Source: Paludibacter jiangxiensis (GTDB lineage Bacteria; Bacteroidota; Bacteroidia; Bacteroidales; Paludibacteraceae). From it: DNA of 64,000 nt. Shown in pieces: positions 3,667 to 38,033 of the stretch. The first letter of the stretch is position 1; each line of letters opens with the position of its first letter. The DNA is taken from the NCBI GenBank assembly GCA_945870155.1, contig CAMBSB010000011.1, forward strand, positions 1-64,000. The letters run 5' to 3'. The notes below the pieces were generated by a model, which was not told where the DNA came from, searched no databases, and saw only the letters and a list, made by a program, of their open reading frames with translations. The translations under genes and the position numbers were made by a program.

Positions 3667-6390
3667 ATGAGTAACACAAAAAGAGTGTATACTTTTGGTA
3701 ACGGAAAAGCCGAAGGTAAAGCTGAAATGAAAAATTTGCTTGGAGGTAAAGGAGCAAATCTTGCTGAAATGAACTTGATTGGTGTTCCGGTTCCTCCGGG
3801 ATTCACTATCACAACAGATGTTTGTTCTGAGTATTATTCACTTGGAAAAGACAAAGTAGTAGAACTTTTAAAGCCAGAAGTGGCTGCAGCAATTGCTGAG
3901 CAGGAAATTTTAATGAGTTCGAAATTTGGTGATATCGAAAACCCTTTGTTAGTTTCGGTTCGTTCAGGTGCTCGTGCTTCAATGCCCGGTATGATGGACA
4001 CTATCTTGAATCTTGGTTTGAACGATGCAGTTGTTGAAGGAATTATTCGCAAAACCGGCAATGCTCGTTTCGCATGGGATTCTTATCGTCGTTTTGTTCA
4101 AATGTATGGCGATGTTGTTTTAGGTATGAAACCTGAAAACAAGAATGATATTGATCCTTTCGAAGAAATTATTGAACATATAAAAGAAGAAAAAGGTGTT
4201 GAATTAGATACTCAACTTTCGGTTGACGATTTAAAAGAAATGGTAGCTCGATTTAAAGCTGCAGTTTTAAAACAAACCGGTCATAATTTCCCTGAATCGG
4301 CTTACGAACAACTTTGGGGAGCTATTTGCTCAGTATTTGATTCTTGGATGAATGATCGCGCTATTCTTTATCGCAAAATGGAAGGAATTCCAGCTGAATG
4401 GGGAACAGCCGTGAATGTACAAGCCATGGTATTTGGTAATATGGGTGAAACTTCAGCTACAGGTGTATGTTTCAGTCGTGATGCTGCTACCGGCGAAGAC
4501 CAATTTATTGGAGAATACTTAATTAATGCTCAGGGCGAAGATGTGGTTGCCGGTATTCGCACTCCACAACAAATTACAAAAATTGGTTCACAACGTTGGG
4601 CTGTTTTGGCAGGTGTTTCTGAAGAGGAACGTTTAGCTAAATATCCATCGATGGAAGAAGCTATGCCTGAAATTTATTTAGAGTTAGACGCTATCCAAAC
4701 AAAATTGGAAAACCACTACAAAGATATGCAGGATATGGAGTATACCGTACAAGAAGGTAAGCTTTGGTTCTTGCAAACCCGTAACGCCAAACGTACCGGT
4801 GCAGCTATGGTAAAAATTGCCATGGATATGTATCACCAAGGTATGATTGACGAAAAAACAGCTATTTTACGTGTTGATCCAAACCGTTTGGATGAATTAT
4901 TACACCCAGTATTTGATAAAAAAGCTATCAAAGATGCAAAGTTAATTGCTAAAGGATTGGCTGCTTCTCCCGGAGCTGCTTCAGGTCGTGTAGTATTTAA
5001 TGCTGATGATGCTGCTGAGTGGGCACAACATGGTGAAAAAGTAATCATGGTACGTGTTGAAACTTCACCAGAAGATTTAGCAGGTATGGCTGCTGCTCAG
5101 GGAATTCTTACTGCTCGTGGTGGTATGACTTCGCATGCTGCTGTTGTGGCACGTGGTATGGGTAAATGTTGCGTTTCAGGAGCTGGTGCTCTTAAAATTG
5201 ATTACGCTAACAAAATTATGGAAGTAGATGGTCTAACTGTTAAAGAAGGCGATTATATTTCATTAAACGGTTCAACCGGTGATATTTTCTTAGGAAAAGT
5301 TGGAACTACCGAAGCTGAATTGGATGCCGATTTCGCAGAAATCATGACATTGGCTGATAAATACACCAAAATGGCTGTACGTACTAATGCTGATACTCCT
5401 CATGACGCAGAAGTTGCTCGTAAATTTGGAGCTACAGGAATTGGACTTTGCCGTACAGAACACATGTTCTTCGAAGGTGAAAAGATCAAAGCTATGCGCG
5501 AAATGATTCTTTCGGAAAATGCCGAAGGTCGTCGTATTGCATTGGCAAAAATCCTTCCTTACCAACAGGAAGATTTCGAAGGTATTTTCGAAGCCATGGC
5601 AGGTTGTCCTGTAACGGTTCGTTTGCTCGATCCACCTTTGCACGAATTTGTTCCTCATGATGAAAAAGGTCAACGTGAAATGGCTGAAGCAATGGGAGTA
5701 TCGGTAAAAGTGATTAAACAACGTGTTGATTCACTTCACGAACAAAATCCGATGTTAGGACACCGTGGTTGTCGTTTAGGAAATACATATCCTGAAATTA
5801 CTGAAATGCAAACACGTGCTATTCTTGGTGCTGCTTTGGCTTTGAAGAAAAAAGGAATTGTTGCTGTTCCTGAAATAATGGTTCCATTGGTTGGTATCAA
5901 ATTTGAGTTTAACGAGCAAGATACTATTATTCGCGAAACAGCTGCTAAACTTTTTGCCGAAGTAGGCGATAGCATTGATTTTAAAGTAGGAACCATGATA
6001 GAAATTCCACGTGCAGCACTTACTGCCGATAAGATTGCTGAAAAAGCAGAATTTTTCTCATTTGGAACTAATGACTTAACGCAGATGACTTTTGGTTATT
6101 CACGTGACGATATTGCTTCATTCCTACCAATTTATTTGGATAAGAAAATTTTGAAAGCAGATCCATTCCAGGTGCTTGACCAAAATGGTGTAGGACAATT
6201 GGTACAAATGGCAACTGAAAAAGGACGTTCAGTAAATCCAAAACTAAAAGTAGGTATTTGTGGAGAACATGGAGGCGAACCATCTTCAGTAGAATTCTGC
6301 CACCGTGTAGGTCTGAATTATGTTAGTTGTTCACCATTCCGTGTGCCAATCGCGCGTTTGGCTGCCGCACAAGCTGCATTGAAGGAATAG
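3667..6390 (+). CDS. ppdK: pyruvate, phosphate dikinase
   Basis: A 907-residue cytoplasmic enzyme that interconverts pyruvate + ATP + Pi and phosphoenolpyruvate + AMP + PPi. In Bacteroidetes it is part of PPi-linked glycolysis. The length and three-domain order match the family. The N-terminal ATP-grasp domain starts VYTFGNGKAEGKAEMKNLLGGKGANLAEM. The swivelling phosphohistidine domain carries GGMTSHAAVVARGMGKCC with the catalytic His at about residue 490. The C-terminal PEP barrel has GICGEHGG with the catalytic Cys at about residue 865. It is monocistronic: a strong terminator follows directly. Its promoter carries paired TTGCGCAA boxes. Confidence 0.98.
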   Translation: MSNTKRVYTFGNGKAEGKAEMKNLLGGKGANLAEMNLIGVPVPPGFTITTDVCSEYYSLGKDKVVELLKPEVAAAIAEQEILMSSKFGDIENPLLVSVRSGARASMPGMMDTILNLGLNDAVVEGIIRKTGNARFAWDSYRRFVQMYGDVVLGMKPENKNDIDPFEEIIEHIKEEKGVELDTQLSVDDLKEMVARFKAAVLKQTGHNFPESAYEQLWGAICSVFDSWMNDRAILYRKMEGIPAEWGTAVNVQAMVFGNMGETSATGVCFSRDAATGEDQFIGEYLINAQGEDVVAGIRTPQQITKIGSQRWAVLAGVSEEERLAKYPSMEEAMPEIYLELDAIQTKLENHYKDMQDMEYTVQEGKLWFLQTRNAKRTGAAMVKIAMDMYHQGMIDEKTAILRVDPNRLDELLHPVFDKKAIKDAKLIAKGLAASPGAASGRVVFNADDAAEWAQHGEKVIMVRVETSPEDLAGMAAAQGILTARGGMTSHAAVVARGMGKCCVSGAGALKIDYANKIMEVDGLTVKEGDYISLNGSTGDIFLGKVGTTEAELDADFAEIMTLADKYTKMAVRTNADTPHDAEVARKFGATGIGLCRTEHMFFEGEKIKAMREMILSENAEGRRIALAKILPYQQEDFEGIFEAMAGCPVTVRLLDPPLHEFVPHDEKGQREMAEAMGVSVKVIKQRVDSLHEQNPMLGHRGCRLGNTYPEITEMQTRAILGAALALKKKGIVAVPEIMVPLVGIKFEFNEQDTIIRETAAKLFAEVGDSIDFKVGTMIEIPRAALTADKIAEKAEFFSFGTNDLTQMTFGYSRDDIASFLPIYLDKKILKADPFQVLDQNGVGQLVQMATEKGRSVNPKLKVGICGEHGGEPSSVEFCHRVGLNYVSCSPFRVPIARLAAAQAALKE

Positions 6391-6413
6391 AATTTCCAAT
6401 ATACTATTAATTA

Positions 6414-6452
6414 AGCCAGCACTTTTATAAAAAAAAGTACTGGCTTTTTTTT
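6414..6452 (+). terminator. rho-independent terminator of ppdK
   Basis: An AGCCAGCACTTTT / AAAAGTACTGGCT hairpin with one mismatch is followed by a run of seven or eight T, 24 bp after the ppdK stop. Confidence 0.9.
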
Positions 6453-6479
6453 GTTTAAAACAATGTAGAAATTAATTTT

Positions 6480-6644
6480 GTAACTACTCACCACAAATCC
6501 AATAATGTAGAACTTGGTTTTGAAGTGAACTCCAAATCAAAATAACACCAATTATGTCATAAATTGCGATTTAATTATTCATTTAAAATTAAATAGCACC
6601 CTAGAACTCCCCCCTTGGGGGGTTGGGGGGCTGAGTATTTACTA
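6480..6644. mobile_element. MITE-like element, copy B (inverted relative to copy A)
   Basis: A 165-bp element bounded by GTAACTACTCACC on the left and, read inward from the right, GTAAATACTCAGCC. It is flanked on both sides by TAATTTT (6473-6479 and 6645-6651), a perfect 7-bp direct repeat touching both ends, as expected of a transposition target duplication. It aligns with the reverse complement of 2022-2181 over its full length and has the same CCCCCCTTGGGGGG hairpin. It has no coding capacity and lies between the ppdK terminator and the GH57 promoter region. Confidence 0.85.
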
Positions 6645-6662
6645 ATTTTTGCATGTTTTGAA

Positions 6663-6676
6663 CAAACGTTTGCATT
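6663..6676. promoter_or_regulatory. LacI-type operator upstream of the GH57 gene
   Basis: CAAACGTTTGCATT contains the 10-bp palindrome CAAACGTTTG and a full right half-site (CGTTTGCATT) identical to that of the 30-bp palindrome at 49916-49945. The left half is degenerate beyond CAAA. It lies 53 bp upstream of the -7 box, more like an activator or upstream site than a simple roadblock. Confidence 0.55.
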
Positions 6677-6728
6677 CAATAAATTCAAAGATGATGGATT
6701 CAGAGGATTTTGTTTTTGACTTATACTA

Positions 6729-6736
6729 TATCTTTG
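6729..6736 (+). promoter_or_regulatory. -7 promoter box of the GH57 gene
   Basis: TATCTTTG matches TAnnTTTG exactly and lies 24 bp before the ATG at 6760. Confidence 0.6.
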
Positions 6737-6759
6737 GTTTTTAATTAAAATATTATCCT

Positions 6760-9700
6760 ATGAAATGCAAATTAATTTTATTATTTTATTTAATTAATTT
6801 TTTAAATTACTATCAAATTAGTGCGCAAAAAGTGCATACTTCCTACTTATGGCACATGGATCAGCCTGTGTATTGGGCAGATAAAAGTAAAGACAAGCCA
6901 GAATCTAAACAGTTTGTAGAAGAATCAAACAGATTAAAAAATAATGGTACAAATATCTATCCGGGGAGTCCGGTTGCTCATCCTACCAATAATTTAGAAG
7001 AAATATTTTCGAAAGCTGACAGGGTACAAGCATATCAGTCGTCGCCTCGGAACGCTATAAATAGTATGAGAGATATTCCTAATGCCGGAGCACAGTTAAG
7101 TATTTCTGGTGGATTGTTGGATAATATTCAATCTTTGGGAGCTAAAAATCAATGGGGTTATTCGGCAAATTGGATGAATAGCTACAAAGAAGCCAATGGA
7201 TGGAAAACATCGGGTAATTTTACACGATTAGATATTGTAAACTTTACTTATGATCATGCTTTTTCGCCTTTTGTAAGCGAACGAGCACTTGTGCGGCAAA
7301 TTAAAGCATTTCAATACGTTTCTTCAAAATACTATGGGTATAACTCAAAAGGCTACTGGCCAGCTGAATGTGCTTTTTCAGAACGAATTATTCAATCACT
7401 TGTAAGTTGTGGTATAGAATGGTCGGTTGTTCCAAACAGTCATTTAGCGCGTACATTGTCGGATTATGTTCATCCTTATAATATTAATGGTAATATTGAT
7501 GCTCCAAACCGAGCCGATAAAGTTCCAACGCAAGGCATAAATTGGTATTCGGGTACTATCGATGGTCGCGGAAGTACCCTGGCAGCTCCTTATTGCTACC
7601 AAGCTCATAAAGCGCAATATATTAACCCTGCAACCGGAGTCGCTTATAAAATCGACATTATTCCTATGTGTAACTATATCAGCTATATTGATGGTTATAG
7701 CGGTGCAAATACGAGCGATATTTCATCAAAAATTGAACCTTTTAGTTCAAGTTCACAACCAAGTATAGTTTTACTGGCTCATGATGGCGATAATGCCTGG
7801 GGTGGGGGCAGCAGTTACTACAATGAAGCAGTTAATAGTTTCAGTCATGCGGCTAATGCTGCCGGATATGAACCTGTTACCATCCAGCAATTTTTAAATG
7901 ATCATCCTGTGCCTGAAAGCGATATTGTAAAAGTTGAAGATGGCGCTTGGGTAAATGCCGATAGCGATTGGGGACATCCACAGTTTATAAATTGGATGTG
8001 GCCATTGTATTCAAAAACTGACTATCGTTTTAATCCGGATGGTTGGACCGAAGATGCCCGTAACTGGGCTGTAATTACGGCAACCGATAATTATGTAACT
8101 ATGGCAGAGGACTTAGAAGGAGGAACGCTTCGCAACCAATACATTGCCGAAGGCGGAACTTCAGCTACAAATGCTGAAAAAGCCTGGCATTTTTATTTTG
8201 GAGGATTGAATTCGGGTTTTATGTATTATGGTAAGGCCGAAGACATGGAGGTGAAACCATCGATGACAGGAAATATTGCGATTGAATATGCACAAAAAGT
8301 GATAGATTCAAAACCCGGAGTCGACAACACCGCTCCTTCAGTTTTTATACCTCAACGTTATCCTTATAATCCCGGCGAATTTACTTTTGGACCTACTACG
8401 GCATACAAAAAAGTTGCCACATCATCCGATTTTCATGTATGGACTTTTGCTTATGATGTAAGCGGATTATCCAAGGTTGAGCTGAAATACAGATTGGATA
8501 AAGATGGTGGTAATCCATTGAGCAGCAATGACAATGAAATATACAATGGTGGTTCCGAAGTTGAAGCATGGCAAACTATTGATATGAATCGCCGCCCAAT
8601 GAGTTCAGATCCAACAACAGATTCGGAATTAAATTTCTTTATTTTGCCAAAAGCCAAAGCAGATTTGTGCTATGCCGAGATAATAGGTTTAAAGGATAAA
8701 TTAGTAGATTATTATGTAGAAGCTACTGATTCAAAAGGGAATGTATACCGTTCACCAATACAGCATGTTTATGTAGGATTAGGCGATGGTCAAACCGGCG
8801 GCGGTGGTTCAGTTGTTAATTGGGAACCAAAAGAACCTAGTAATGCAAGTATTATAACAATTTCGTGTACAAACGCCACGGCATCTTCAAAGCTACATTG
8901 GGGTGTGAATGCAACATCTGGCGGATGGGTAAAACCTATCGCGGCTTATTTTAGCCCTACTACGGTTTCAACTGGATCTACATCTGTTGAAACTCCATTT
9001 ACGCTTATTGATGGTAAATGGCAAGTAGTATTAGGACCATTTAACAATCCGGCTCAAGCAGTAAGTTCAGTAAACTTTGTAATTAATCACGGAAGTAATA
9101 ATTGGGACAATAATAATGGAAGTGATTATGCCATTAAACTAAGTTCAGTATCAACAGATAATCCTATTAGCCAGAACTTTACAAAAACACTTAATCAGAA
9201 TGAATCCTGTGTTTTTACACTTTCAGATTTTGGTTTTTCAAGTCCGAAAGGAAATCAATTTAAAGCAATCAAAATACTTTCTTTACCTGAAACCGGAGTT
9301 TTAAAATTAAACGGGACAAATACTTTTGTTGGACAATTGATAACAAACCCAACCGAACTTATCTATTTTGCAGCATTGTTAAATAGCTCATTTAGCTTTA
9401 AAATTATTGATAATCAGGACTTGGAAAGTGATGCCAATTATACTGTTTCTTTTGTAGTAAAAAACCCAAATATATCAGGCATTACTTTATCATTTAAAAA
9501 ACCAATAGAGTGGGGGAGTAGTGGGGTGTCAATTTGGGCTTGGAATTCAAATGGTAATATTTTTTCAAGTTGGCCGGGAGTAGCTATGACAGACAATGGA
9601 AATGCTTGGTATAGCTACACTTTCGAAACTTCAATAAGCTCTGTAAATGTGATATTTAGTAAAAATGGAAATCCACAAACTGTCGATATTAATGCCGTTA

Positions 9701-28407: not shown

Positions 28408-30498
28408 TTAATTCCAACTCCATTTTAATTTTACAAATATATTGCGTCCAGCTTCGTATAAGTCTAGGCCACGAGTGTTGAAAAGATGGTTTTTATAGGC
28501 TGTATCAAAAATATTATTCACTCCGGCAAATAACTGTAAATGAGACTTTTTAATATTTACAGGAAATGAATTTGCGCTAAAGTTTATTATCACATGTCCT
28601 TTTGTTGCAGTTTCATTTTTTGCGAGTTGGTTTTGAGTACCTGCCCACAGTGCTGAAAGTTCTGTCTCAAACTTATTATTCATGCGATAATTAGCTGATA
28701 AATAGCCATGTAGGGGCGGTATTTGAGGAAGAAAAATACCCGCTTCAATATCACGTGCTTGCACATACGAAACATTTCCCAACAACATAAAACTATTACT
28801 TAACAACCAATTAAATTCCATCTCAGCTCCAGTAAAAAAAGCTTTATTTACATTGGTATTTATAAGAGCATTAACTGTAGTGCCAGTTGGAGTCACATAA
28901 TTGCCCTGCATTTCGGTTATTAAGTCGAACAGATAATTTGCAAAAATATCCGCTTTTAAATTAAATTTGGAACCGGAATACAGATAACTTAAATTTGAAA
29001 ATCCACCTTTTTCGGGTTTTAAATTAGGACTACCAATTCGTAAAAGACCTGCCTGATCAATATATTTGAACCTTTCTTCGATGGATGCAACCCTGTAAGC
29101 ACTGGCCAAAGTTAGTATTAGCTTATTACGTTTTATTGGTATAAATTCAAAATCGAGATGTGCCGAATACGAAAATTCAGGTTTAATTCCTGCATTTGTT
29201 TGAATTACTTTTGGTATAACAGCATCCACTTTTTTTCCATCAATAATAGTATATTTGAAAACCTGCTTAAATGCGGTATCGTTTTGAGTGCGATGATAAT
29301 CCAATCGTAAACCGGAATTAATGGTAAAATACTTGGGGTCAATAATTTTTTTGTACAATGCAAATGCACCAACATTTAGCATATTGGCATCGGGGTTAGG
29401 TTGTTCTCCTACAACAATTGTATCTGCCCCATAAGTAATATTTAATCTTCTTGTTCCTGATTTTCTGTACCATGATTCTGCACCTACAGTTAGCGTGTTA
29501 TAATCATTAAAATACAAATCGGCAGTTGCTTTTACGCCAGATGTTGAATTGTAGCTCGAAGGTAAAATGCTTTTGTTTTTATTTACAATGTTTTCAACAT
29601 TACGTCCAATGTTTTGAGTATAAGCTTTGATTTTTAGTTGAGTTATCAAATCACTGAGATCGGTAAAAATATATTCACCACTCATTTGACGACGTTTCAT
29701 ACCTGTATATCGAACTGTGGCTGTTGCTGGAAAAACATTGCTTCCCGGCAATCCTACATCCCAGGCATTGGCTTCATTGTAGTTTACCAGTAATTCCTGA
29801 TTGTCGTTATATCTCATTCCACCTTTCAAGCCCCATGCTAAGTCGTTGAATTGACTGTTTTTTAAAACCCCTTTTGGAGTTTGTGTGTTTTCAGCAGTTC
29901 TATAATTACCATTTAATGAAACAAACCAGTTTTTGTTTGTAAAATTGATATTGGCTGCATTGTCCCACATCTTGTTAACTATATGATAGCCAGAACTTAA
30001 ATTTCCAGAGCTTTTAAGACTATTGGTGTATTCAGGAATTTGTGATACGAAGTTAATAACGCCACCCATAGCACCCGATCCGAAAATTACAGATCCTGCA
30101 CCTTTAATGACTTCAATTTTTTCCAATTGGTTCATATTTATTGTTGATAATGCTCCTGCAATATCACTTGAAGTTTGAATCCTATCCTGATCTATTAATA
30201 ATAATAGTTTTTGTTCATTCATTCCTCTGATATTTACTGTTGTAGCCCATATTCCATCGCGTATTAATGCTACTCCAGTTTTTGATACCAATGCATCAGC
30301 AGGTGTAATAAAACTATTTTTCTCAATGCTAGCTTTATCAACAGAAACATAGGGGAGAGTCAGTTTTGGAGAGGCCAAACTGTAAATCGTTATTTCTTTT
30401 ATTTGCATTTGTTTGATAGAGTCATTGTTTGTGTTAGCAAACACTATCAGGGTTAAACACATCAAATTAATTAATGAAAGTAATTTCTTGTAATTCAT
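28408..30498 (-). CDS. TonB-dependent outer-membrane receptor
   Basis: A 696-residue receptor. I start at ATG 30498 (MNYKKLLSLINLMCLTLIVFA), which gives a signal peptide. The longer frame to 30675 does not. The plug domain includes IRGMNEQKLLLLIDQDRIQTSSDIAGALSTINMNQLEKIEVIKGAGSVIFGSGAMGGVINFVS. The 22-strand barrel ends in FVKLKWSWN, lacking the usual terminal aromatic. It imports a scarce ligand (siderophore, haem, cobalamin or a metal); nothing here tells which. It stands alone, with no SusD, riboswitch or transporter partner. Confidence 0.9.
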   Translation of the reverse strand: MNYKKLLSLINLMCLTLIVFANTNNDSIKQMQIKEITIYSLASPKLTLPYVSVDKASIEKNSFITPADALVSKTGVALIRDGIWATTVNIRGMNEQKLLLLIDQDRIQTSSDIAGALSTINMNQLEKIEVIKGAGSVIFGSGAMGGVINFVSQIPEYTNSLKSSGNLSSGYHIVNKMWDNAANINFTNKNWFVSLNGNYRTAENTQTPKGVLKNSQFNDLAWGLKGGMRYNDNQELLVNYNEANAWDVGLPGSNVFPATATVRYTGMKRRQMSGEYIFTDLSDLITQLKIKAYTQNIGRNVENIVNKNKSILPSSYNSTSGVKATADLYFNDYNTLTVGAESWYRKSGTRRLNITYGADTIVVGEQPNPDANMLNVGAFALYKKIIDPKYFTINSGLRLDYHRTQNDTAFKQVFKYTIIDGKKVDAVIPKVIQTNAGIKPEFSYSAHLDFEFIPIKRNKLILTLASAYRVASIEERFKYIDQAGLLRIGSPNLKPEKGGFSNLSYLYSGSKFNLKADIFANYLFDLITEMQGNYVTPTGTTVNALINTNVNKAFFTGAEMEFNWLLSNSFMLLGNVSYVQARDIEAGIFLPQIPPLHGYLSANYRMNNKFETELSALWAGTQNQLAKNETATKGHVIINFSANSFPVNIKKSHLQLFAGVNNIFDTAYKNHLFNTRGLDLYEAGRNIFVKLKWSWN

Positions 30499-30903
30499 AC
30501 AGGTTTTATATTTAAAATATGGGATGCAAAGTATATAATAATCGGTAAAGTGAAGAATTTTATTTCGTTTCAGAAGTGAGTTTATCTTCTTTAAATAATG
30601 ACTTACAATATCTCTTAATGATAAAGCCAATATGATTAAAACCTCGTACTGTAAGTGCTTCATGAAATAACACAATAAAACCTCAATGGTTCACCAAAAT
30701 AGGGGCAAAATTTAGTTGTTTTAGTTTTAATTATTGCATAGAAATTACATTATTGAATTTTTAAACAGATTATCCTCTAATATTAATTTTCACAATTACC
30801 TAATCTTTTAGATATTTAAATTCATAAATAAATGATGACTATAACTGGATAGTTTCACTGAATCTTCAAATAATCAAATACATTTATCGATAACTCTGGG
30901 TTT
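30499..30903. other. 405-bp intergenic region
   Basis: It lies between the five-gene lipid operon and the receptor gene. Apart from a weak promoter-like TACTTTG on the minus strand (30527-30533), I see no gene, hairpin, riboswitch or repeat in it. Confidence 0.5.
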
Positions 30904-31899
30904 TTAATACCTTATCAATGCTCCACCAATTGAAAAACCTGCAGCTGTACCAACCAGAAAGCAAATATCCCCACGCTTAATTTCTCCATTTTCAATAGAG
31001 TCATGTAGCAACATTGGAATAGAGCTTGCAATACAATTGCCATGCGTTTTTAAATTTCCCTTTACTTGATTTGGTTTAAAATTATACGTTTTTTCAAGGA
31101 TTAATACTGCTTTAAGTGATGCTTGATGCGGTATTACAGAGTCAACATCCAATATTTTAATTGCTAAATCTTCAAAAAAAGCATCGATAAAAGGTGCTAA
31201 TTTTTGCAATGCGAGTCGCATCAAATTTTTACCATTCATAGTAAATGAGTATAAATCAGCAGTATAAGGGTTGTCTTTAAAATAGTATTTATTTCCGCCT
31301 CCTTTTACTAAAGAATCGAAAATGCCTTCGGTGTAATTTTTTTGCATAGCCTTATAAAAACGTGCATCTGCACTCTCATCATATTGTAAAATAAATGCAA
31401 CAGCACCATCCCCAAAGAGCGTTATTGTTTCTTTGTTAGCAGGATTTAATCCCTTTGATGATATTTCGCTGCTTACTATAACAATCGTTTTATATTGTTT
31501 TCCATCTAATAATGCAGAAGCAACTTCGAATGCACTAACAAAACTAAGGCAACTTGCGTCGATATCTATGGTTCCAAAATCAAATTCATTGCCATTTACC
31601 AACTCGCTTTTAATTACACTTGCCTGGTTTGGAAGTGGATAGTCAAATGTAGCTGAAGCTGATATTAACAAATCTACATCCTTGAGTTGCAGATTGCTCT
31701 TTTCGAATGCATTTTCTACAGCTCGTGCGCCCATATATCCGTTGCACTCAAATGTAACATGATGTCTTGACTCAACTCCGGAGTTTTTTGCCGACCATCC
31801 ACGTTCTAAATTGTGTAAATCTTCAATTTGAGATGAATAGACTATTTTTGGAAGATATTTTCCTGAAGCAATTATTTTTATCGGTTTAGCTGTTTTCAT
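30904..31899 (-). CDS. FabH-like 3-oxoacyl-ACP synthase III homologue
   Basis: A 331-residue thiolase-fold ketosynthase. The full catalytic triad is present: Cys117 in DIDASCLSFVSAF, His258 in VIPHQAS and Asn288 in THGNCIASS. The C-terminus GDICFLVGTAAGFSIGGALIRY has the glycine-rich end of the family. I start at ATG 31899, overlapping the ligase gene by 14 bp; the longer frame to 31944 would overlap by 59 bp. It is the last gene of a five-gene operon with an SDR and an adenylate-forming enzyme and no acyl carrier protein nearby. That set-up resembles OleA-type head-to-head condensation more than primary fatty-acid synthesis (inference). Confidence 0.85.
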   Translation of the reverse strand: MKTAKPIKIIASGKYLPKIVYSSQIEDLHNLERGWSAKNSGVESRHHVTFECNGYMGARAVENAFEKSNLQLKDVDLLISASATFDYPLPNQASVIKSELVNGNEFDFGTIDIDASCLSFVSAFEVASALLDGKQYKTIVIVSSEISSKGLNPANKETITLFGDGAVAFILQYDESADARFYKAMQKNYTEGIFDSLVKGGGNKYYFKDNPYTADLYSFTMNGKNLMRLALQKLAPFIDAFFEDLAIKILDVDSVIPHQASLKAVLILEKTYNFKPNQVKGNLKTHGNCIASSIPMLLHDSIENGEIKRGDICFLVGTAAGFSIGGALIRY

Positions 31900-33169
31900 T
31901 TCTAATTCTTCTAAGTTTGTTGCCTTGAATATGATTTCTATCATTCAATAGAGTAAATTCTACATGCTTAATATTATATTGTAGTAATAATTCTTCAATT
32001 GAATTCACAGCCAAATTATAGGATAATGAAGAACTACTCTCAATAAATAAACACAATTGATTGGTGTTTTTCTGAATCAATGTATAGTCTGTGATTTTGC
32101 TGTCGGCCAATATAATAGCCCTGCGAAAAAAATCAGGAAAAATCTTTACCTTTAAATTGTCTGATGAAATAAATTCTAATATATCATCCGATCGTCCTTC
32201 GATAGCAGCTATGGCTTGCATTTTACTTCCACATTCACAACTAGCTTGTTCTGTTAATATATCGTTTAACTCATACCTTATTACAGCCTGCGATTTTCTT
32301 TTTAAGTCTGTAATTACCGGATGAAATCTAATTTGCTCTTTATCAATATATTTCTTCTCAATAATTAAAAAATCTTCGTTAAAATGTAAAGTGCCATTTT
32401 TGCAAGTATAAGCCAGAAAACCTTCGGTACATTGATATACCTGATGAATAATTTGATTGAATACACGTGTCAAATATGCTTTGTCTTCGGGAGTTAACAC
32501 TTCTGCAACCGAAATTATTTTTGAGGGTTGAATATGCAGAAGCTTTTTTTCAGTGGCTTTAGCCAATTCAAGCAACATACTTGGTTGTGCTACTAAAATG
32601 TTGGGCTGTAGTTTGTTAAGTCTGTCAATGTGACATGGTATATCAATGAGTAAATCAAAAAAATTAAATGATAGGATATTTGAATTTACCGAAGCATATA
32701 AATTGCTATTTGCCCTTAAAAAGAAGGCGACATTGCGTTTTTTTAATGAAAATCCAATAACCCGATCGAGCATCATTGCTACCCACATTGCTCGTTCGTT
32801 TTCGCTGGCTAAAAACACGCCTCTGTTGCCACTAGTGCCCGATGAAAGTCCAACAGTTACTCCATTTATTGTTGGCGAAAAATCTCTGTCCTTTTCAGCT
32901 TTTATAGCCAATTCTAAAGCATTTTCTAACTTTATTTTGCAAGTATTTATAAGATCGAAATTGGCCATAAACACTTGCTTGTTTATCAATGGAAAATCAC
33001 TAATTCCCATTTTTTTATTGCTAAATTCCTTATAAAATTCCGATTTAGCTAAAAAGCGTTTTAAGCTTTTAAATCGGATTTTTCTTAGCGTCGATAAATT
33101 ATTTCGGTACCAAAACTTAAGTAGTTTAGCCTGAATAAGATATAATAGTATTTTTATTTTAAAGCGCAT
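31886..33169 (-). CDS. putative adenylate-forming enzyme (F390 synthetase/PaaK-like)
   Basis: A 427-residue protein of the phenylacetate-CoA ligase/coenzyme F390 synthetase-like branch of adenylate-forming enzymes. The P-loop-like TVGLSSGTSGNRGVFLAS is intact, as are YQCTEGFLAYTC (adenine motif) and a C-terminal hinge region EGRSDDILEF. A CECGS pair occurs near residue 330. I start at ATG 33169 (MRFKIKILLYLIQ), overlapping the hydrolase gene by 11 bp. It probably activates a fatty or beta-hydroxy acid; the acceptor is unknown. Translationally coupled to both neighbours. Confidence 0.8.
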   Translation of the reverse strand: MRFKIKILLYLIQAKLLKFWYRNNLSTLRKIRFKSLKRFLAKSEFYKEFSNKKMGISDFPLINKQVFMANFDLINTCKIKLENALELAIKAEKDRDFSPTINGVTVGLSSGTSGNRGVFLASENERAMWVAMMLDRVIGFSLKKRNVAFFLRANSNLYASVNSNILSFNFFDLLIDIPCHIDRLNKLQPNILVAQPSMLLELAKATEKKLLHIQPSKIISVAEVLTPEDKAYLTRVFNQIIHQVYQCTEGFLAYTCKNGTLHFNEDFLIIEKKYIDKEQIRFHPVITDLKRKSQAVIRYELNDILTEQASCECGSKMQAIAAIEGRSDDILEFISSDNLKVKIFPDFFRRAIILADSKITDYTLIQKNTNQLCLFIESSSSLSYNLAVNSIEELLLQYNIKHVEFTLLNDRNHIQGNKLRRIRNENS

Positions 33170-34007
33170 CGATATCAAATTTTGCAGAAACAAGTTTTGA
33201 AGTCGTTTCGTTACAATGAGTGGGTACAATAATTATTTGTGGTGATTGTATGTGTAATAAATGTAATTTTTCTAGACTTGACATATATGCTTTCCATGAA
33301 TCGAAAATAATACTGGCTATTGGATGAGCGGGGCACATTTTTTCGAATGATTTCTTATACCAACAAGCATCCGAAACCAAGAAATAATTGTTTTTTGTAG
33401 TCTGAACCTGCATTCCAATTTGTCCGGCAGCGTGTCCGGGTAAGTCATATATAAACATTGATGTATCACCCCACAAATCATATTTAACCCCAAAAATTTC
33501 ATCATGAGTTGGCACAGCTATATCTTCAATAAAACTTAACCTTGAGTCAAAATCAGCCGGAATTAAGTCTTTTAGTATGCCTTTTGTAACTCCGAGGAAT
33601 GATGGCATGTTTTTCATTTGTTTATACGCAGGGCGTGAACAATAGAACTGAGCATTGTTAAAATCTTTCAATCCACCAATATGATCGGCATGAAAATGCG
33701 ATATTATAACATGTTTAATATCACTAACTTTAATTCCAAAAGAGTTCAATTGCCATTGTATTTCATCTTCGGTTTTTACAAAAACTTTTGTGATTTTTGC
33801 ATATATTTTGTTTGGAAAGTTTTTTGTTACATCATAAAAGCGTTCCGCATAACCAGTATCAAAAAGTATCCAACCTTTTTCAGGATGTAAAATCAAACCA
33901 TAAAGTGCGTTGAATTTTACTGGTTTATTCTCTCCGCCTTGTATGGCATGTTTCTCATTTGCAAAGCAATAGCCTGCATAATTTAAAAACAATTTTACTT
34001 TGTTCAT
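33159..34007 (-). CDS. metallo-beta-lactamase-fold hydrolase
   Basis: A 282-residue cytoplasmic hydrolase. The metal motif is HFHADHIGG (HxHxDH) after LFDTGY, with a later His in YDLPGHAAGQIGM and Asp in LVSDACWY. Domain layout resembles the AhlD/AiiA-type lactonase branch, so the bond cleaved may be a lactone or thioester. It sits in mid-operon, overlapping the SDR gene by 4 bp and the ligase gene by 11 bp. In an OleABCD-like scheme it would occupy the hydrolase position that OleB fills with an alpha/beta fold. That is inference. Confidence 0.85.
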   Translation of the reverse strand: MNKVKLFLNYAGYCFANEKHAIQGGENKPVKFNALYGLILHPEKGWILFDTGYAERFYDVTKNFPNKIYAKITKVFVKTEDEIQWQLNSFGIKVSDIKHVIISHFHADHIGGLKDFNNAQFYCSRPAYKQMKNMPSFLGVTKGILKDLIPADFDSRLSFIEDIAVPTHDEIFGVKYDLWGDTSMFIYDLPGHAAGQIGMQVQTTKNNYFLVSDACWYKKSFEKMCPAHPIASIIFDSWKAYMSSLEKLHLLHIQSPQIIIVPTHCNETTSKLVSAKFDIDAL

Positions 34008-35005
34008 TTACTATTATTTTTATACCAATTTACAAATTCATCAATGGACTGAAGGCTTGTAACTTGAGGTGTAAAGTTAAGCATTTTTTTTGCTTTTGAG
34101 ATATCCAAAGTAAAGCTATCGGCCAAAACTCCAACACTATATTTAATCAGTGGAGGTTCACTTTTCTGTTTCAGCACTTTGGCTTTAAACTCAATTATTG
34201 ATGCAATAAACATGGCAAGTGCACGAGGAATCTTTGTAGTAGGAGGGGAGAGCTGTAGCGATTTAAGTGCGTAATTTAATGTTTCCCAAAATGCTACAGG
34301 ATGGCCATCGGTGATATTATATGCTTCACCCCAAGCTTTCTCATCTGTTTTCAAGCAACAGAGCACTGCTTCAATTACATTACGTACCGATGTAAGGTCG
34401 CAAATATTTTTTCCATCTCCAATAATTTTTAGTTTACCTTTTTTATATGCTTCCAATATTCTTGGAAAAATAACTGTATCGCCTGCACCTATTATTGCTC
34501 TGGGTCGTAATGCTATAGTTAATATGCCTTTACCATTATATTCCAATATAAGTTTTTCACTTATTAATTTTGTTTTGGCATAATTATTTATCATCTTGGG
34601 TGGTAATGGATCCGATTCCTTAACATTCAATCTGCTATTAGAATTTACATAAATACTTGGTGTAGATATATATATAAATTTTTTCACACATGCTTTCTTT
34701 GATGCAATTAAAAGATTTTCTGTTGCCACACAATTTGCTTTATAAAAATCGTCATACGCTCCATAAGGCGACGATAATGCAGCGCAATGTATAACTATTT
34801 CAGCATTAACAACGAGACGATTGCAAAATTCTGCATCAGTTAAATCTCCTGCAATAAATTCGCAATTTTTGTTTTTCAATTCTTCAGTATTATTGTTGCG
34901 CCTCGAGGTAGCAACTATCTGATAATCATTTGTATTTTCGCCCAAATAAGCTGCCAGCCGTCCTCCCAAAAATCCGGCAGCACCTGTTACAATTATTTTT
35001 TTCAT
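34004..35005 (-). CDS. NAD-dependent epimerase/dehydratase family protein (3-beta-HSD-like SDR)
   Basis: A 333-residue extended SDR. The nucleotide-binding motif is TGAAGFLGG at the N-terminus, the acidic step is FIAGDLTD, and the active-site pair is YAKTK (Y-x3-K) preceded by STPSIY. The overall pattern is nearer to 3-beta-hydroxysteroid dehydrogenases and OleD than to sugar-nucleotide epimerases. It overlaps both neighbours by 4 bp. It probably oxidises or reduces a hydroxy/keto group on the operon's lipid product. Confidence 0.85.
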   Translation of the reverse strand: MKKIIVTGAAGFLGGRLAAYLGENTNDYQIVATSRRNNNTEELKNKNCEFIAGDLTDAEFCNRLVVNAEIVIHCAALSSPYGAYDDFYKANCVATENLLIASKKACVKKFIYISTPSIYVNSNSRLNVKESDPLPPKMINNYAKTKLISEKLILEYNGKGILTIALRPRAIIGAGDTVIFPRILEAYKKGKLKIIGDGKNICDLTSVRNVIEAVLCCLKTDEKAWGEAYNITDGHPVAFWETLNYALKSLQLSPPTTKIPRALAMFIASIIEFKAKVLKQKSEPPLIKYSVGVLADSFTLDISKAKKMLNFTPQVTSLQSIDEFVNWYKNNSK

Positions 35006-36090
35006 ATTGACGTTTGCTTAACGATTTTTCCTGCACAAAATGTATAAATCGAAGTGATATCGGTTTTAAACAAATACTCTTCGAGCTCAGCATTTCGTTG
35101 TATAGATGCAAATAAAGTTTCAGGGTGCTGTTTTACAAGGAATTGTCTTTCACAAAACCTAGCATTTGGTGCAGCTGCATCAATTATTTTTTCCCAACAG
35201 GATTTATATTCGTTTTTACTCGCATAGGAAGAAAAATCGGACAATGAAAATGCTGTAAATCGATTTTCAGTATTTGATAAATAGTCTGACATTGAATTAG
35301 TTACTATCTCAATGTTATTAATATTATCTCGTATTAATTCAAAATTTTCTTCGCGTAAATGATGTGGTAAAACACAGTCTGTACCATAATATCCTTGAAA
35401 TATTAAATTGGCAAAATGATTGGTTTTTAAATTAAAGTTAGTTGCCATATAATCCAATCTGGATTTCATATAAGTGTAAATACTGAAGTTTTTTGGGATT
35501 AATCTTGCACCGGGTTCCCTAAAAATGTACAACCATAAAAATTTATTGCAAATAATTCTAAATACAAATCTCCAAACTAAATTATCAAACCCTTCTTTCC
35601 ATAGCTTTTGTTGGGCGTCTAAATTGTTGATTGATATTAGTTTGTGTATTGTTTTTCGTTTTAAAAATGAGAACTTAATTAGCTTTCGTTGAATTCTTTC
35701 CCATGTTCCACAGTACAATATTCCGTTTTCAATAAGCTTATGATGTTTCAACCAATACAATTTACAATTATCTGATAAACTATCTTTAATACGTTCAAAA
35801 AAAAGGATTCTTTCCATTGAATCATTAAGACCAATAAATTGACAGAATTCTTTATATGTCAAATGCTTGTAGGCTGCAATTTTAAGTTCAAGAATAAAGT
35901 TTTGGGTTTTATTAAAGTCCAAACTTATTATTTTTTGAGGTGAGTCAACTAATAAATCGAGTGATCTTGCTCCACTTCCACTTATGCAGAAAACTATGTC
36001 TAAAGGGCTTAATCTTAAGGCCTTTCTTTCTGATTCACTGTCCTCATTACTAGATGAATAATTAATTTTTTGAAAGAATTTTTGTGACAT
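35002..36090 (-). CDS. BtaA-like 3-amino-3-carboxypropyl transferase (DUF3419)
   Basis: A 362-residue protein, first in the operon. The opening block DIVFCISGSGARSLDLLVDSPQKIISLDFNKTQNFILELK is the AdoMet-binding motif of the DUF3419/BtaA family. BtaA transfers the 3-amino-3-carboxypropyl group of S-adenosylmethionine to diacylglycerol in betaine-lipid synthesis. The C-terminal half includes FQGYYGTDCVLPHHLREENFELIRDN and FCERQFLV, also family-like. No BtaB methyltransferase is adjacent, so a betaine headgroup is not expected from this operon alone. A -7 box lies at 36234-36241 with a leader of about 140 nt. Confidence 0.78.
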   Translation of the reverse strand: MSQKFFQKINYSSSNEDSESERKALRLSPLDIVFCISGSGARSLDLLVDSPQKIISLDFNKTQNFILELKIAAYKHLTYKEFCQFIGLNDSMERILFFERIKDSLSDNCKLYWLKHHKLIENGILYCGTWERIQRKLIKFSFLKRKTIHKLISINNLDAQQKLWKEGFDNLVWRFVFRIICNKFLWLYIFREPGARLIPKNFSIYTYMKSRLDYMATNFNLKTNHFANLIFQGYYGTDCVLPHHLREENFELIRDNINNIEIVTNSMSDYLSNTENRFTAFSLSDFSSYASKNEYKSCWEKIIDAAAPNARFCERQFLVKQHPETLFASIQRNAELEEYLFKTDITSIYTFCAGKIVKQTSI

Positions 36091-36233
36091 TTATTTTATA
36101 AAATGTGGAATTATGGAATTATTATTTAATGTTACTTTTATATCTCTGAATTTTAAATTATGATTAGTAGTTTTTTAAATATTATTGCATTTATAGATTT
36201 ATTTGTATTATCAATATATCAAAGTTCATTATA

Positions 36234-36241
36234 CAAAGATA
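36234..36241 (-). promoter_or_regulatory. -7 promoter box of the five-gene lipid operon
   Basis: CAAAGATA on the plus strand (TATCTTTG on the minus). It is the only full match upstream of the BtaA-like gene. Confidence 0.5.
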
Positions 36242-36354
36242 CTAAAAACTGGGTTTAATAAATTTGACCACAAAAAATATTTAATTTATTTTTAAATAGC
36301 TTATATGCAAGATGCTTTTTTGAATTTTTATAAATTAAGTTTCCATTTTTCCAT

Positions 36355-36362
36355 TATCTTTG
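36355..36362 (+). promoter_or_regulatory. -7 promoter box of the C69 dipeptidase gene
   Basis: TATCTTTG, 24 bp before the ATG at 36387. Confidence 0.6.
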
Positions 36363-36386
36363 CAAAATACAATTTAAAAAACGCTT

Positions 36387-38033
36387 ATGAACAAGAAAAC
36401 GTTAATATTATTATTATTTGCAATTGCTTATACACATTTGCATGCTTGTACAAATTTTTTAGCAGGTAAAAATGCTACAGTTGATGGATCTACATTAATT
36501 AGTTATTCTGCCGATTCTTATTTTTTATTCGGTGCTTTGTACAATTATCCTGCAGCAACTTATCCAAAGGATGCTATGCTCGACATAAATGAATGGGATA
36601 CAGGTAAATACCTTGGAAAAATTAAACAAGTTGAAAAAACTTTTTCGGTAGTTGGAAACATGAATGAGTATCAGGTTAGTATAGGTGAAACAACTTTTAC
36701 CGGAAGAGAAGAACTTATTGATACTACTGGTTTGATTGATTACGGCAGTTTAATTTATATCGCCTTACAACGTTCAAAATCAGCTCAGGAAGCCATAAAA
36801 GTAATGACTGACTTGGTTGCTGAATATGGATATTACAGTTCTGGTGAATCATTTTCTATTGCTGATCCAAATGAAGTTTGGATACTCGAAATGATTGGAA
36901 AAGGACCAAAGAACAAGGGTGCTGTGTGGGTAGCACAACGTATTCCTGACGATTGTGTTTCGGGTCATGCCAATCAGGCAAGAATAACTACTTTTCCATT
37001 GAATGATAAAAAGAATTGTTTGTATGCAAAAGATGTAATAAGTTTTGCTCGGGAAAAAGGATATTTTAAAGGAAGCGATAAAGAATTCAGTTTTTCGGAC
37101 GTATATGCTCCTCTTGATTACAGTGCTTTGCGTATATGTGAAGCGCGTGTTTGGAGTTTCTTCCGTCAGGTTGATCCAGCCATGGAAAAATACATTAGCT
37201 ATGTGAAAGGCGAAACCAAAGAACGTATGCCTTTGTGGATTAAACCAGCTTTTAAAGTAAGCGCACAGAATTTTAAAGAATATATGCGAAATCAATACGA
37301 AGGTACTGAGTTTGATATGACTAAAGGCGTTTGTGCTGCACCATTTGGTAGTAAGTTGCGTCATAGTCCGCTTGGATTCAAAGTTGATGGAATTGAATAT
37401 ATGCACGAACGCCCTGTGGCAACTCAACAAACAGGTTTTGTTTTTGTGTCGCAAATGCGCGGTTGGTTGCCTAACTATATTGGTGGAATTCATTGGTTTG
37501 GTGTGGACGATGCCGCAAGTAATATTCTGGTTCCTATGTATTGTGGAATTCATGGTGTTCCAACGTGCTATAACGAAAAAAATGGTAACTTATTAGAGTA
37601 TTCGGCTACTTCAGCATTTTGGATATATAATGGTGTAGCCAATTATGCCTATGGAAAATACAGTTATATGATGCAGGATATTAAGAAAGTACAATCTCAC
37701 TGGGAAACTAACTTTAATACACTTGTGCCTGCTATTGACAAAGTAGCTCAAACAATGAATGAAACCGATGCTCGTATTTTTCTAACAAATTTTAGTCATA
37801 CCCAAGCCGAAAACTCAACTACTGCATGGAAAAAGCTTGGTGAGTATTTATTGGTAAAATATATGGACGGTAATATTAAAAAAGAAAAAGATGGCAAATT
37901 TGTTCAAAACCATGCACATATACCTCCAACTATAATCAGAGCAGGTTATAGTGAAGAAATAATACGTCAAATTGCCAAAGAAAATCCGGGTCAAAGAGTT
38001 AAAACAGAAGAGGAATTAAAAAACAGAAAATAA
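36387..38033 (+). CDS. secreted C69-family dipeptidase
   Basis: A 548-residue N-terminal-nucleophile peptidase. The signal ends in THLHA and the mature protein would begin at Cys21 (CTNFLAGKNATVDGSTL), which is the nucleophile of the PepD/C69 family. The block YYSSGESFSIADPNEVWILEMIGKGP is typical. Such enzymes cleave dipeptides in the periplasm. Given the peptidoglycan genes 3 kb downstream, L-Ala-L-Glu is a plausible substrate, but this is inference. The gene has its own promoter and a terminator-like hairpin follows it. Confidence 0.88.
   Translation: MNKKTLILLLFAIAYTHLHACTNFLAGKNATVDGSTLISYSADSYFLFGALYNYPAATYPKDAMLDINEWDTGKYLGKIKQVEKTFSVVGNMNEYQVSIGETTFTGREELIDTTGLIDYGSLIYIALQRSKSAQEAIKVMTDLVAEYGYYSSGESFSIADPNEVWILEMIGKGPKNKGAVWVAQRIPDDCVSGHANQARITTFPLNDKKNCLYAKDVISFAREKGYFKGSDKEFSFSDVYAPLDYSALRICEARVWSFFRQVDPAMEKYISYVKGETKERMPLWIKPAFKVSAQNFKEYMRNQYEGTEFDMTKGVCAAPFGSKLRHSPLGFKVDGIEYMHERPVATQQTGFVFVSQMRGWLPNYIGGIHWFGVDDAASNILVPMYCGIHGVPTCYNEKNGNLLEYSATSAFWIYNGVANYAYGKYSYMMQDIKKVQSHWETNFNTLVPAIDKVAQTMNETDARIFLTNFSHTQAENSTTAWKKLGEYLLVKYMDGNIKKEKDGKFVQNHAHIPPTIIRAGYSEEIIRQIAKENPGQRVKTEEELKNRK

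Follow-up and report, generated by a model that had tools for sequence, protein, structure and literature searches.

The window analysed here, the whole 64,000-nucleotide stretch of contig CAMBSB010000011.1 from Paludibacter jiangxiensis, contains a five-gene minus-strand operon (positions 30904–36090) whose last four genes are a conserved unit found across many genomes, with the first gene, encoding a BtaA-like transferase, as an optional partner. The four core genes encode a short-chain dehydrogenase/reductase (SDR), a metallo-β-lactamase (MBL) fold hydrolase, an F390 synthetase-related adenylate-forming enzyme and a ketosynthase (KS) resembling MxnB and CorB. We propose, with a confidence close to even, that this probably acquired copy of the cassette makes a lipid-like acid bearing two chains and a hydroxyl group, to which the BtaA-like enzyme would add a polar amino-acid head.

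Composition of the operon

In order of transcription, the five genes are:

35002–36090, minus strand: BtaA-like S-adenosylmethionine (SAM):3-amino-3-carboxypropyl transferase (DUF3419; PF11899), 362 amino acids, occupying the variable head-group position
34004–35005, minus strand: extended SDR of the 3-beta-HSD/OleD type (PF01073, PF01370), 333 amino acids, core gene, predicted ketone reductase
33159–34007, minus strand: MBL-fold hydrolase related to the AttM/AiiA lactonases (PF00753), 282 amino acids, core gene, predicted thioesterase or lactonase
31886–33169, minus strand: F390 synthetase-related adenylate-forming enzyme (TIGR02304), 427 amino acids, core gene, predicted to activate a carboxylate
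30904–31899, minus strand: FabH-like KS of the MxnB/CorB type (N- and C-terminal halves of ACP_syn_III), 331 amino acids, core gene, predicted to condense two acyl groups

With these starts, consecutive open reading frames overlap by 4, 4, 11 and 14 bp, in agreement with the 4 to 14 bp overlaps of the initial annotation, and the family assignments made there for the five genes were recovered (DUF3419, 3Beta_HSD/Epimerase, Lactamase_B, TIGR02304 and ACP_syn_III). Pfam scores were 195.8 bits for DUF3419 (cut-off 28.2), 130.8 for 3Beta_HSD and 54.1 for Lactamase_B; a Pfam search of the adenylate-forming protein returned no match. The F390-related gene begins with ATG and has an in-frame TTG 60 bases upstream, while the KS gene, with its ATG at the 31899 end, has an alternative in-frame ATG at 31944 that would give a protein of 346 amino acids. 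Promoter-like sites numbered 28, against 32.8 in shuffled sequences, and terminator-like sites 4 against 2.6, so no argument is built on either; on the minus strand, the only match to a Bacteroidetes-like promoter falls within the KS gene.

A four-gene core conserved across phyla

A one-genome-per-species scan with an alignment of the F390-related protein returned at least 595 stretches, at least 571 of them encoding a relative, and the best 80 were kept as named loci (L030–L109), a sample biased toward close relatives. A gene was counted as a core member when it lay within 7.5 kb of the F390-related gene. Genes for SDR, MBL hydrolase, F390-related enzyme and KS were all present in 70 of the 80 loci, and in each of these 70 they lay on a single strand and followed one of only two arrangements: SDR-MBL-F390-KS in 39 loci and KS-SDR-MBL-F390 in 31; because of this, the association is beyond chance. 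Eight of the ten loci short of a full core have the F390-related gene at most 1.6 kb from a contig end (L039, L041, L043, L061, L083, L093, L095 and L101); in the other two, L080 and L109, it is farther from an end. Where at least 4.5 kb was available on both sides, the core was complete in 48 of 50 loci. Twenty further loci, the window among them, were picked from plasmid, Escherichia coli and unnamed-genome matches, and 17 of these carry the complete core; the remaining three (L007, L145 and L146) have the F390-related gene alone.

The full core occurs in Bacteroidota, Balneolota, Bacillota, Campylobacterota, Bdellovibrionota, Pseudomonadota and Fusobacteriota. L056, labelled Rickettsiales, is the sole named Pseudomonadota locus with all four genes; it falls among Bacteroidota in the core tree, and its contig is probably mis-binned or mislabelled. 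On the chromosome of E. coli Ecol_244 (L110, 5737–12618) the core has narI on one side and the tRNA-Tyr/purU genes on the other, and after it come genes for a PAP2 phosphatase, a member of the sterol-desaturase family and a fatty acid desaturase. A 4-kb query from another E. coli locus (L006), which included 77 bases of narI, matched 672 of 5426 complete genomes at 80% coverage or more, and 1657 of the 5426 gave some match. In this second locus, from E. coli STO_Bone4 (4168–8358), the KS and F390-related genes are each split over two frames, which points to decay of the cassette in that strain or to errors in its record.

The BtaA-like gene had been presented in the initial annotation as a member of the set, whereas across 100 loci it is one of several accessories to the four-gene core, present in eight. 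The initial annotation would have been refuted by a failure to find the five genes together in other genomes, and this refutation does not hold, as all five families occur together elsewhere: in Emticicia (L030 and L031), Microscilla (L036), a Chitinophagaceae metagenome-assembled genome (L104) and Rhizobiales plasmids (L147–L149), which with the window make up the eight BtaA loci. The gene order of the window is repeated in L036 and L104; that of the Rhizobiales plasmids is KS-SDR-MBL-F390-BtaA-GNAT-like.

The ketosynthase

Searched against solved structures, a profile of seven cassette ketosynthases scored highest with MxnB (315 bits) and CorB (306), followed by the best FabH (261), PqsD (154) and OleA (114). 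A structural model of the KS, built from 72 sequences with a predicted local distance difference test (pLDDT) score of 96.2, gave MxnB and CorB as the top Foldseek matches, with template modelling (TM) scores of 0.94 and 0.92. The initial annotation had framed the fold comparison as one between OleA and FabH; both are matched by the predicted fold, and both fall below MxnB and CorB (0.84 for Xanthomonas campestris OleA, 0.85–0.89 for FabH). In a 35-protein tree of KSIII proteins, which had few outgroups and left out OleA and PqsD, a 100/100 branch joined 25 cassette ketosynthases with MxnB and CorB, apart from 8 other KSIII rows of related genomes; with those few outgroups, the tree did not separate a position of MxnB and CorB inside the cassette proteins from one beside them (approximately unbiased (AU) test p 0.41). 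MxnB and CorB are 33–34% identical to the cassette KS. With the window KS as query, one other ketosynthase was found in the host genome, 25% identical.

The Cys-His-Asn triad described as intact in the initial annotation (Cys117/His258/Asn288 in the numbering of the window KS) is present in all 72 cassette ketosynthases examined. At the site of the catalytic Glu of OleA and PpyS, these proteins carry Ile (47), Leu (23) or Val (2), and the Pro that follows this site is kept in 72 of 72. Judged by sequence, the cassette KS is not OleA, because the OleA catalytic Glu is replaced in all 72. An acidic residue is near-invariant three positions before that site (residue 86 of the window KS; Asp in 41 and Glu in 26 of the 72), a position held by Glu in CorB and Gln in MxnB. 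According to Kresovic et al. (PMC4578411), the OleA-Glu site is Val in both MxnB and CorB, and this is attributed to a carbon between two carbonyls being more readily deprotonated. PMC5724707 reports that both acyl substrates are transferred to MxnB, for which Cys121 is required, that the enzyme has two tunnels and that it condenses two acyl chains. The cassette KS groups with MxnB and CorB, enzymes that join two acyl chains in a head-to-head manner, and by this kinship the head-to-head condensation guessed at from the window is plausible for it; following the deprotonation logic of MxnB and CorB, one partner may have to be a β-keto chain.

A competing account, which we hold to be rather unlikely, has the KS act in the manner of FabH. 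The enzyme would extend one acyl chain with malonyl-ACP (ACP, acyl carrier protein), the SDR would give a 3-hydroxy acid, the MBL hydrolase would release it, the F390-related enzyme would activate the starter, and the BtaA-like or another head enzyme would decorate it. The outcome would be a hydroxy-acid derivative with one chain, which might act as a signal. The triad is typical of decarboxylating KSIII enzymes, and FabH ranks second to MxnB and CorB by profile and by fold; PQS (Pseudomonas quinolone signal) synthesis also pairs a KSIII with an MBL hydrolase (PqsD and PqsE). In the tree, however, the 100/100 branch separates the cassette KS, together with MxnB and CorB, from the FabH-like proteins of related genomes, and the protein scores 181 bits against the FabH model TIGR00747, under its cut-off of 292.1. 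Moreover, 3-hydroxy acids already arise from ordinary fatty acid synthesis, to which a dedicated set of four enzymes would add little.

The reductase, hydrolase and adenylate-forming enzyme

The best NCBIfam models for the SDR are two OleD models, the NF042422 score being 202.4 bits, under the cut-off of 580, and its Tyr142 and Lys146 are kept in 87 of 87 loci. The MBL hydrolase likewise falls below the cut-offs of the AttM (77.5 bits; cut-off 390) and AiiA (59.8 bits; cut-off 375) models. Its seven metal ligands (HxHxDH, His192, Asp213 and His264), which correspond to a dinuclear site, are invariant in 87 of 87 loci, and its nearest solved relatives by sequence are N-acyl homoserine lactone (AHL) lactonases. 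The F390-type enzyme is a TIGR02304 member (450.8 bits; cut-off 251.9) whose nearest solved relatives are PaaK ligases. Tyr245, Glu249, Asp303 and Arg326 are present in 87 of 87 loci, and the P-loop Gly-Thr-Ser and Lys418 in 86 of 87, with a gap in the remaining one.

The combination of a KS, an SDR and an adenylate-forming enzyme had led the initial annotation to invoke the logic of OleABCD, and part of that comparison stands, in that the SDR is nearest to the OleD models. We nevertheless consider a true Ole- or lipstatin-type route improbable. It would involve OleA-like condensation, OleD reduction and the F390-type enzyme in place of OleC, giving a β-lactone, with the MBL hydrolase serving for self-protection or lactone opening. 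The relevant text of PMC7064751 describes β-lactones made by oleACD clusters without oleB, a point for this reading, and it also reports Glu117-Pro in all but two aligned OleA proteins, in contrast to the Ile, Leu or Val of all 72 cassette ketosynthases. The remaining scores run the same way. The SDR reaches 202 of the 580 bits required by the OleD model, the KS scores 66 bits (cut-off 285) against PRK09258, a model that covers OleA, and the adenylate-forming enzyme lacks a Pfam AMP-binding match. Neither an OleC-type AMP-binding ligase nor an OleB α/β hydrolase occurs in the operon (the rest of the genome was not searched); the hydrolase here is a Lactamase_B protein and thus, as had been noted, of a different fold from OleB.

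A proposed exchangeable head-group gene

Within 7.5 kb of the F390-related gene, the 100 loci carry an ATP-grasp gene in 39 cases, a sulfotransferase gene in 18, a BtaA-like gene in 8 and none of the three in 35; in no locus do two of them occur together. That the three never co-occur suggests that they encode exchangeable head-group enzymes, with small numbers in the case of BtaA. The alternation of ATP-grasp and sulfotransferase genes is clear (p 7.5e-5), whereas that of BtaA with the other head genes is only suggestive (p 0.021 against ATP-grasp over the 100 loci); these tests ignore kinship among the loci. On a core tree of 87 loci made by a quick method, the head-group label changes 20 times, compared with 42.3 in shuffled labels and a value as low in 0 of 200 shuffles. 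BtaA presence requires four changes on this tree, all four forced by starred branches, so the pairing with BtaA was made or lost repeatedly. All three accessory enzymes would place a polar group on a hydroxyl or carboxyl, and their interchange offers the strongest reason to regard the core product as hydrophobic, with a hydroxyl or carboxyl at its end.

Companion genes follow the head-group type. The ATP-grasp gene is accompanied by a GNAT-like gene, the two occurring together in 30 loci, and the companions of the sulfotransferase are fatty-acid hydroxylase, desaturase and Cupin_8 genes. Counted as operon members (same strand, at least 120 amino acids) across 89 loci were ATP-grasp (32), GNAT-like (24), sulfotransferase (16, or 15 distinct, L028 and L049 being the same contig), hydroxylase (11) and Rieske (7) genes. 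Rieske oxygenase genes lie beside BtaA in L030, L031 and L036 and beside GNAT in L038 and L150, and thus with both BtaA-type and ATP-grasp-type cassettes; the L038 copy is weakly similar to the sterol demethylase SdmA (48 bits). The ATP-grasp protein of the Bacillota locus L082 (2136–3308) scores 377 bits against the NCBIfam model PRK06849, named 'hypothetical protein' (cut-off 406), and this model may serve as a marker for the cassette pathway.

Relatives of the BtaA-like protein

Within a sample of 395 Bacteroidota genomes, 46 encode a DUF3419 relative; the top score, 659 bits, is that of the window protein, and the second is 233. The operon copy is the only DUF3419 match in the host genome. 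A DUF3419 tree, which has long branches, neither supported nor rejected a single cassette clade (AU p 0.29). A sequence search of solved structures returned nothing for the BtaA-like protein at E ≤ 0.1. With its structural model (pLDDT 83.5, from 5 sequences), the sole protein matched at E ≤ 0.001 was an uncharacterised one from Leptospira; further matches were weak and mostly to SAM enzymes, among them nicotianamine synthase (E 0.011), which is also an aminocarboxypropyl transferase.

DUF3419 is the BtaA family, and one reading of this link would be that the window protein acts on diacylglycerol as in the synthesis of diacylglyceryl-N,N,N-trimethylhomoserine (DGTS), leaving the other four genes as unrelated passengers. 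We judge this very improbable. There is no BtaB methyltransferase among the five genes and their two neighbours (the rest of the genome was not searched), and a DUF3419 protein with a methyltransferase neighbour in Rhizobium leguminosarum is only 22.8% identical to the window protein. By comparison, the window protein has eight plasmid matches, and the best four of them (31–33% identity), for three of which the sequence was fetched, all lie beside an F390-related gene. In addition, the BtaA-like and SDR genes overlap, and BtaA is paired with the cassette in other genomes as well. The acceptor of the BtaA-like enzyme is probably not diacylglycerol.

A variable genomic junction

Two genes border the operon:

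28408–30675, minus strand: downstream neighbour, TonB-dependent receptor with a Plug domain, separated by a 228 bp gap and not counted in the operon
36387–38033, plus strand: upstream divergent neighbour, C69 peptidase (PF03577), forming the other border of the junction

Of 39 further genomes of the genus that were searched, 18 have these two genes side by side on a single contig and in divergent orientation. The gap between match ends is 178–276 bp in seven of them and 817–3047 bp in eleven, as compared with 5.7 kb in the window genome. Twelve of the 18 intervals were fetched (eleven long and one short), and none contains an open reading frame of any of the five operon families. Eight carry a similar pair of genes encoding a glycosyltransferase and a membrane protein (Glycos_transf_1 and LPG_synthase_TM in the one scanned). 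Of the other four, one has just a glycosyltransferase-like gene, another encodes a PAP2 protein, and in two there is no open reading frame of 120 amino acids or more. The TonB–C69 junction (30676–36386 in the window) is a variable site in the genus. In the 18 sister genomes it is either short or occupied by different genes, so the five-gene operon was probably gained there.

Only the window genome exceeds the TIGR02304 cut-off among 36 genomes of the genus (3 of 60 genomes in that search), as do 6 of the 395 Bacteroidota sample genomes, the window's included. The GC content of the operon (0.30–0.35) is close to that of the window (0.34), and its composition is not foreign-looking; as GC is uninformative, acquisition is argued from distribution and from the junction. 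A phage origin was considered and set aside, a search of a phage collection having given no match.

Proposed pathway

The analysis establishes the protein families, the intact catalytic residues, the conserved gene order, the placement of the KS, the absence of co-occurrence among the three accessory genes in 100 loci and the position at a variable junction; from relatives we infer the substrates, the order of steps and all of the chemistry. In the first step, the KS would join two acyl thioesters head to head, giving a 2-alkyl-3-keto acyl product or its lactone. The MBL enzyme could then hydrolyse the thioester or lactone, and the SDR could reduce the ketone to a secondary alcohol. The F390-type enzyme would adenylate a carboxylate, either feeding an acyl chain to the KS or handing on the finished acid. 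Finally, the BtaA-like enzyme may transfer a 3-amino-3-carboxypropyl group from SAM to the hydroxyl (or carboxylate), forming an unmethylated homoserine-type head. Elsewhere the place of the BtaA-like enzyme would be taken by a sulfotransferase or by an ATP-grasp enzyme, the latter in most cases accompanied by a GNAT-like protein.

A wider form of this proposal, which we offer tentatively and as less likely than the reading for the window operon, is that the four-enzyme core makes a new two-tailed, mycolate-like (2-alkyl-3-hydroxy) lipid class across seven or more phyla, with many E. coli strains among the carriers, and that the head is swapped by a single gene: aminocarboxypropyl with BtaA, an amino acid with ATP-grasp and GNAT, and sulfate with the sulfotransferase.

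Several points weigh against a two-chain, head-bearing product. MxnB and CorB condense activated β-keto chains, and the operon is without a polyketide synthase (PKS). The KS is also FabH-like, at 261 bits by profile and with TM scores of 0.85–0.89 compared with 0.94 for MxnB. MBL hydrolases and PaaK-type ligases are versatile, and F390-related genes occur without the KS/SDR/MBL core at L007, L029, L145 and L146, from which it follows that this family has at least one other gene context. As to the head group, none of the three genes is found in 35 of the 100 loci, the exclusion between BtaA and sulfotransferase has a p of 0.34 (again ignoring kinship), and that between BtaA and ATP-grasp weakens to p 0.078 over 96 loci, once the three plasmids that had been selected through BtaA and one of the two E. 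coli copies are removed. Furthermore, no transporter is among the recurrent same-strand operon families of at least 120 amino acids in the 89 loci (52 single genes lay outside this check), and an ACP-like motif appears in short open reading frames within 7.5 kb in 1 of 100 loci.

The cassette is shared by Bacteroidota, Bacillota, Pseudomonadota and others, E. coli included, and the literature searched assigns no product to it. Should it prove to make a lipid whose head one exchangeable gene determines, this would give a role to the 'F390 synthetase-related' family, extend MxnB/CorB-type ketosynthases beyond antibiotic assembly lines and BtaA chemistry beyond glycerolipids, and provide a natural series for testing the function of lipid head groups. 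On the wider proposal above, and to our knowledge, no earlier BtaA-like enzyme would have had a lipid other than a glycerolipid as its substrate.

Comparison with known systems

The initial annotation took the operon to specify a lipid-like product of no described pathway, which our results support; among the titles and abstract openings listed from openly licensed full-text literature, none described a pathway with this gene set. An 'F390 synthetase' is mentioned for a fatty-acid gene cluster of D. psychrophila in PMC2649909. The aminolipid review PMC11631085, in the passages considered, mentions betaine lipids and no such cassette pathway. The head-to-head fusion of malleicyprol was considered and rejected as a counterpart, being built by a PKS–nonribosomal peptide synthetase according to the excerpt of PMC12304814. 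The window protein is a TIGR02304 ('F390 synthetase-related protein') member by the curated cut-off; the name of that model states no reaction, and the context here is the four-gene cassette.

With BtaA/BtaB, the DGTS system, the operon shares a DUF3419 enzyme for which SAM is the expected aminocarboxypropyl donor; unlike that system, it has no BtaB alongside, and its score lies far from those of the other sampled Bacteroidota DUF3419 proteins. Plain DGTS synthesis was rejected on the lack of BtaB among the five genes and two neighbours and on the overlap and recurrent pairing of BtaA with the cassette. OleABCD and the OleACD/lipstatin systems likewise combine a KS, a 3-beta-HSD-type reductase and an adenylate-forming enzyme, whereas here the OleA Glu is missing, the OleD score is below cut-off, the ligase is of the PaaK/F390 type rather than OleC and a head enzyme is added. 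A literal OleABCD was rejected on the first three of these grounds and on a hydrolase that is not OleB. The closest likeness of the KS is to MxnB and CorB of myxopyronin and corallopyronin biosynthesis, the nearest solved ketosynthases by profile and fold, which share with it a well-supported branch, the Cys-His-Asn triad and the lack of an OleA-type Glu. Those enzymes join carrier-bound β-keto chains into α-pyrones; in the present operon, in place of a PKS, the KS is accompanied by an SDR, an MBL hydrolase and an adenylate-forming enzyme.

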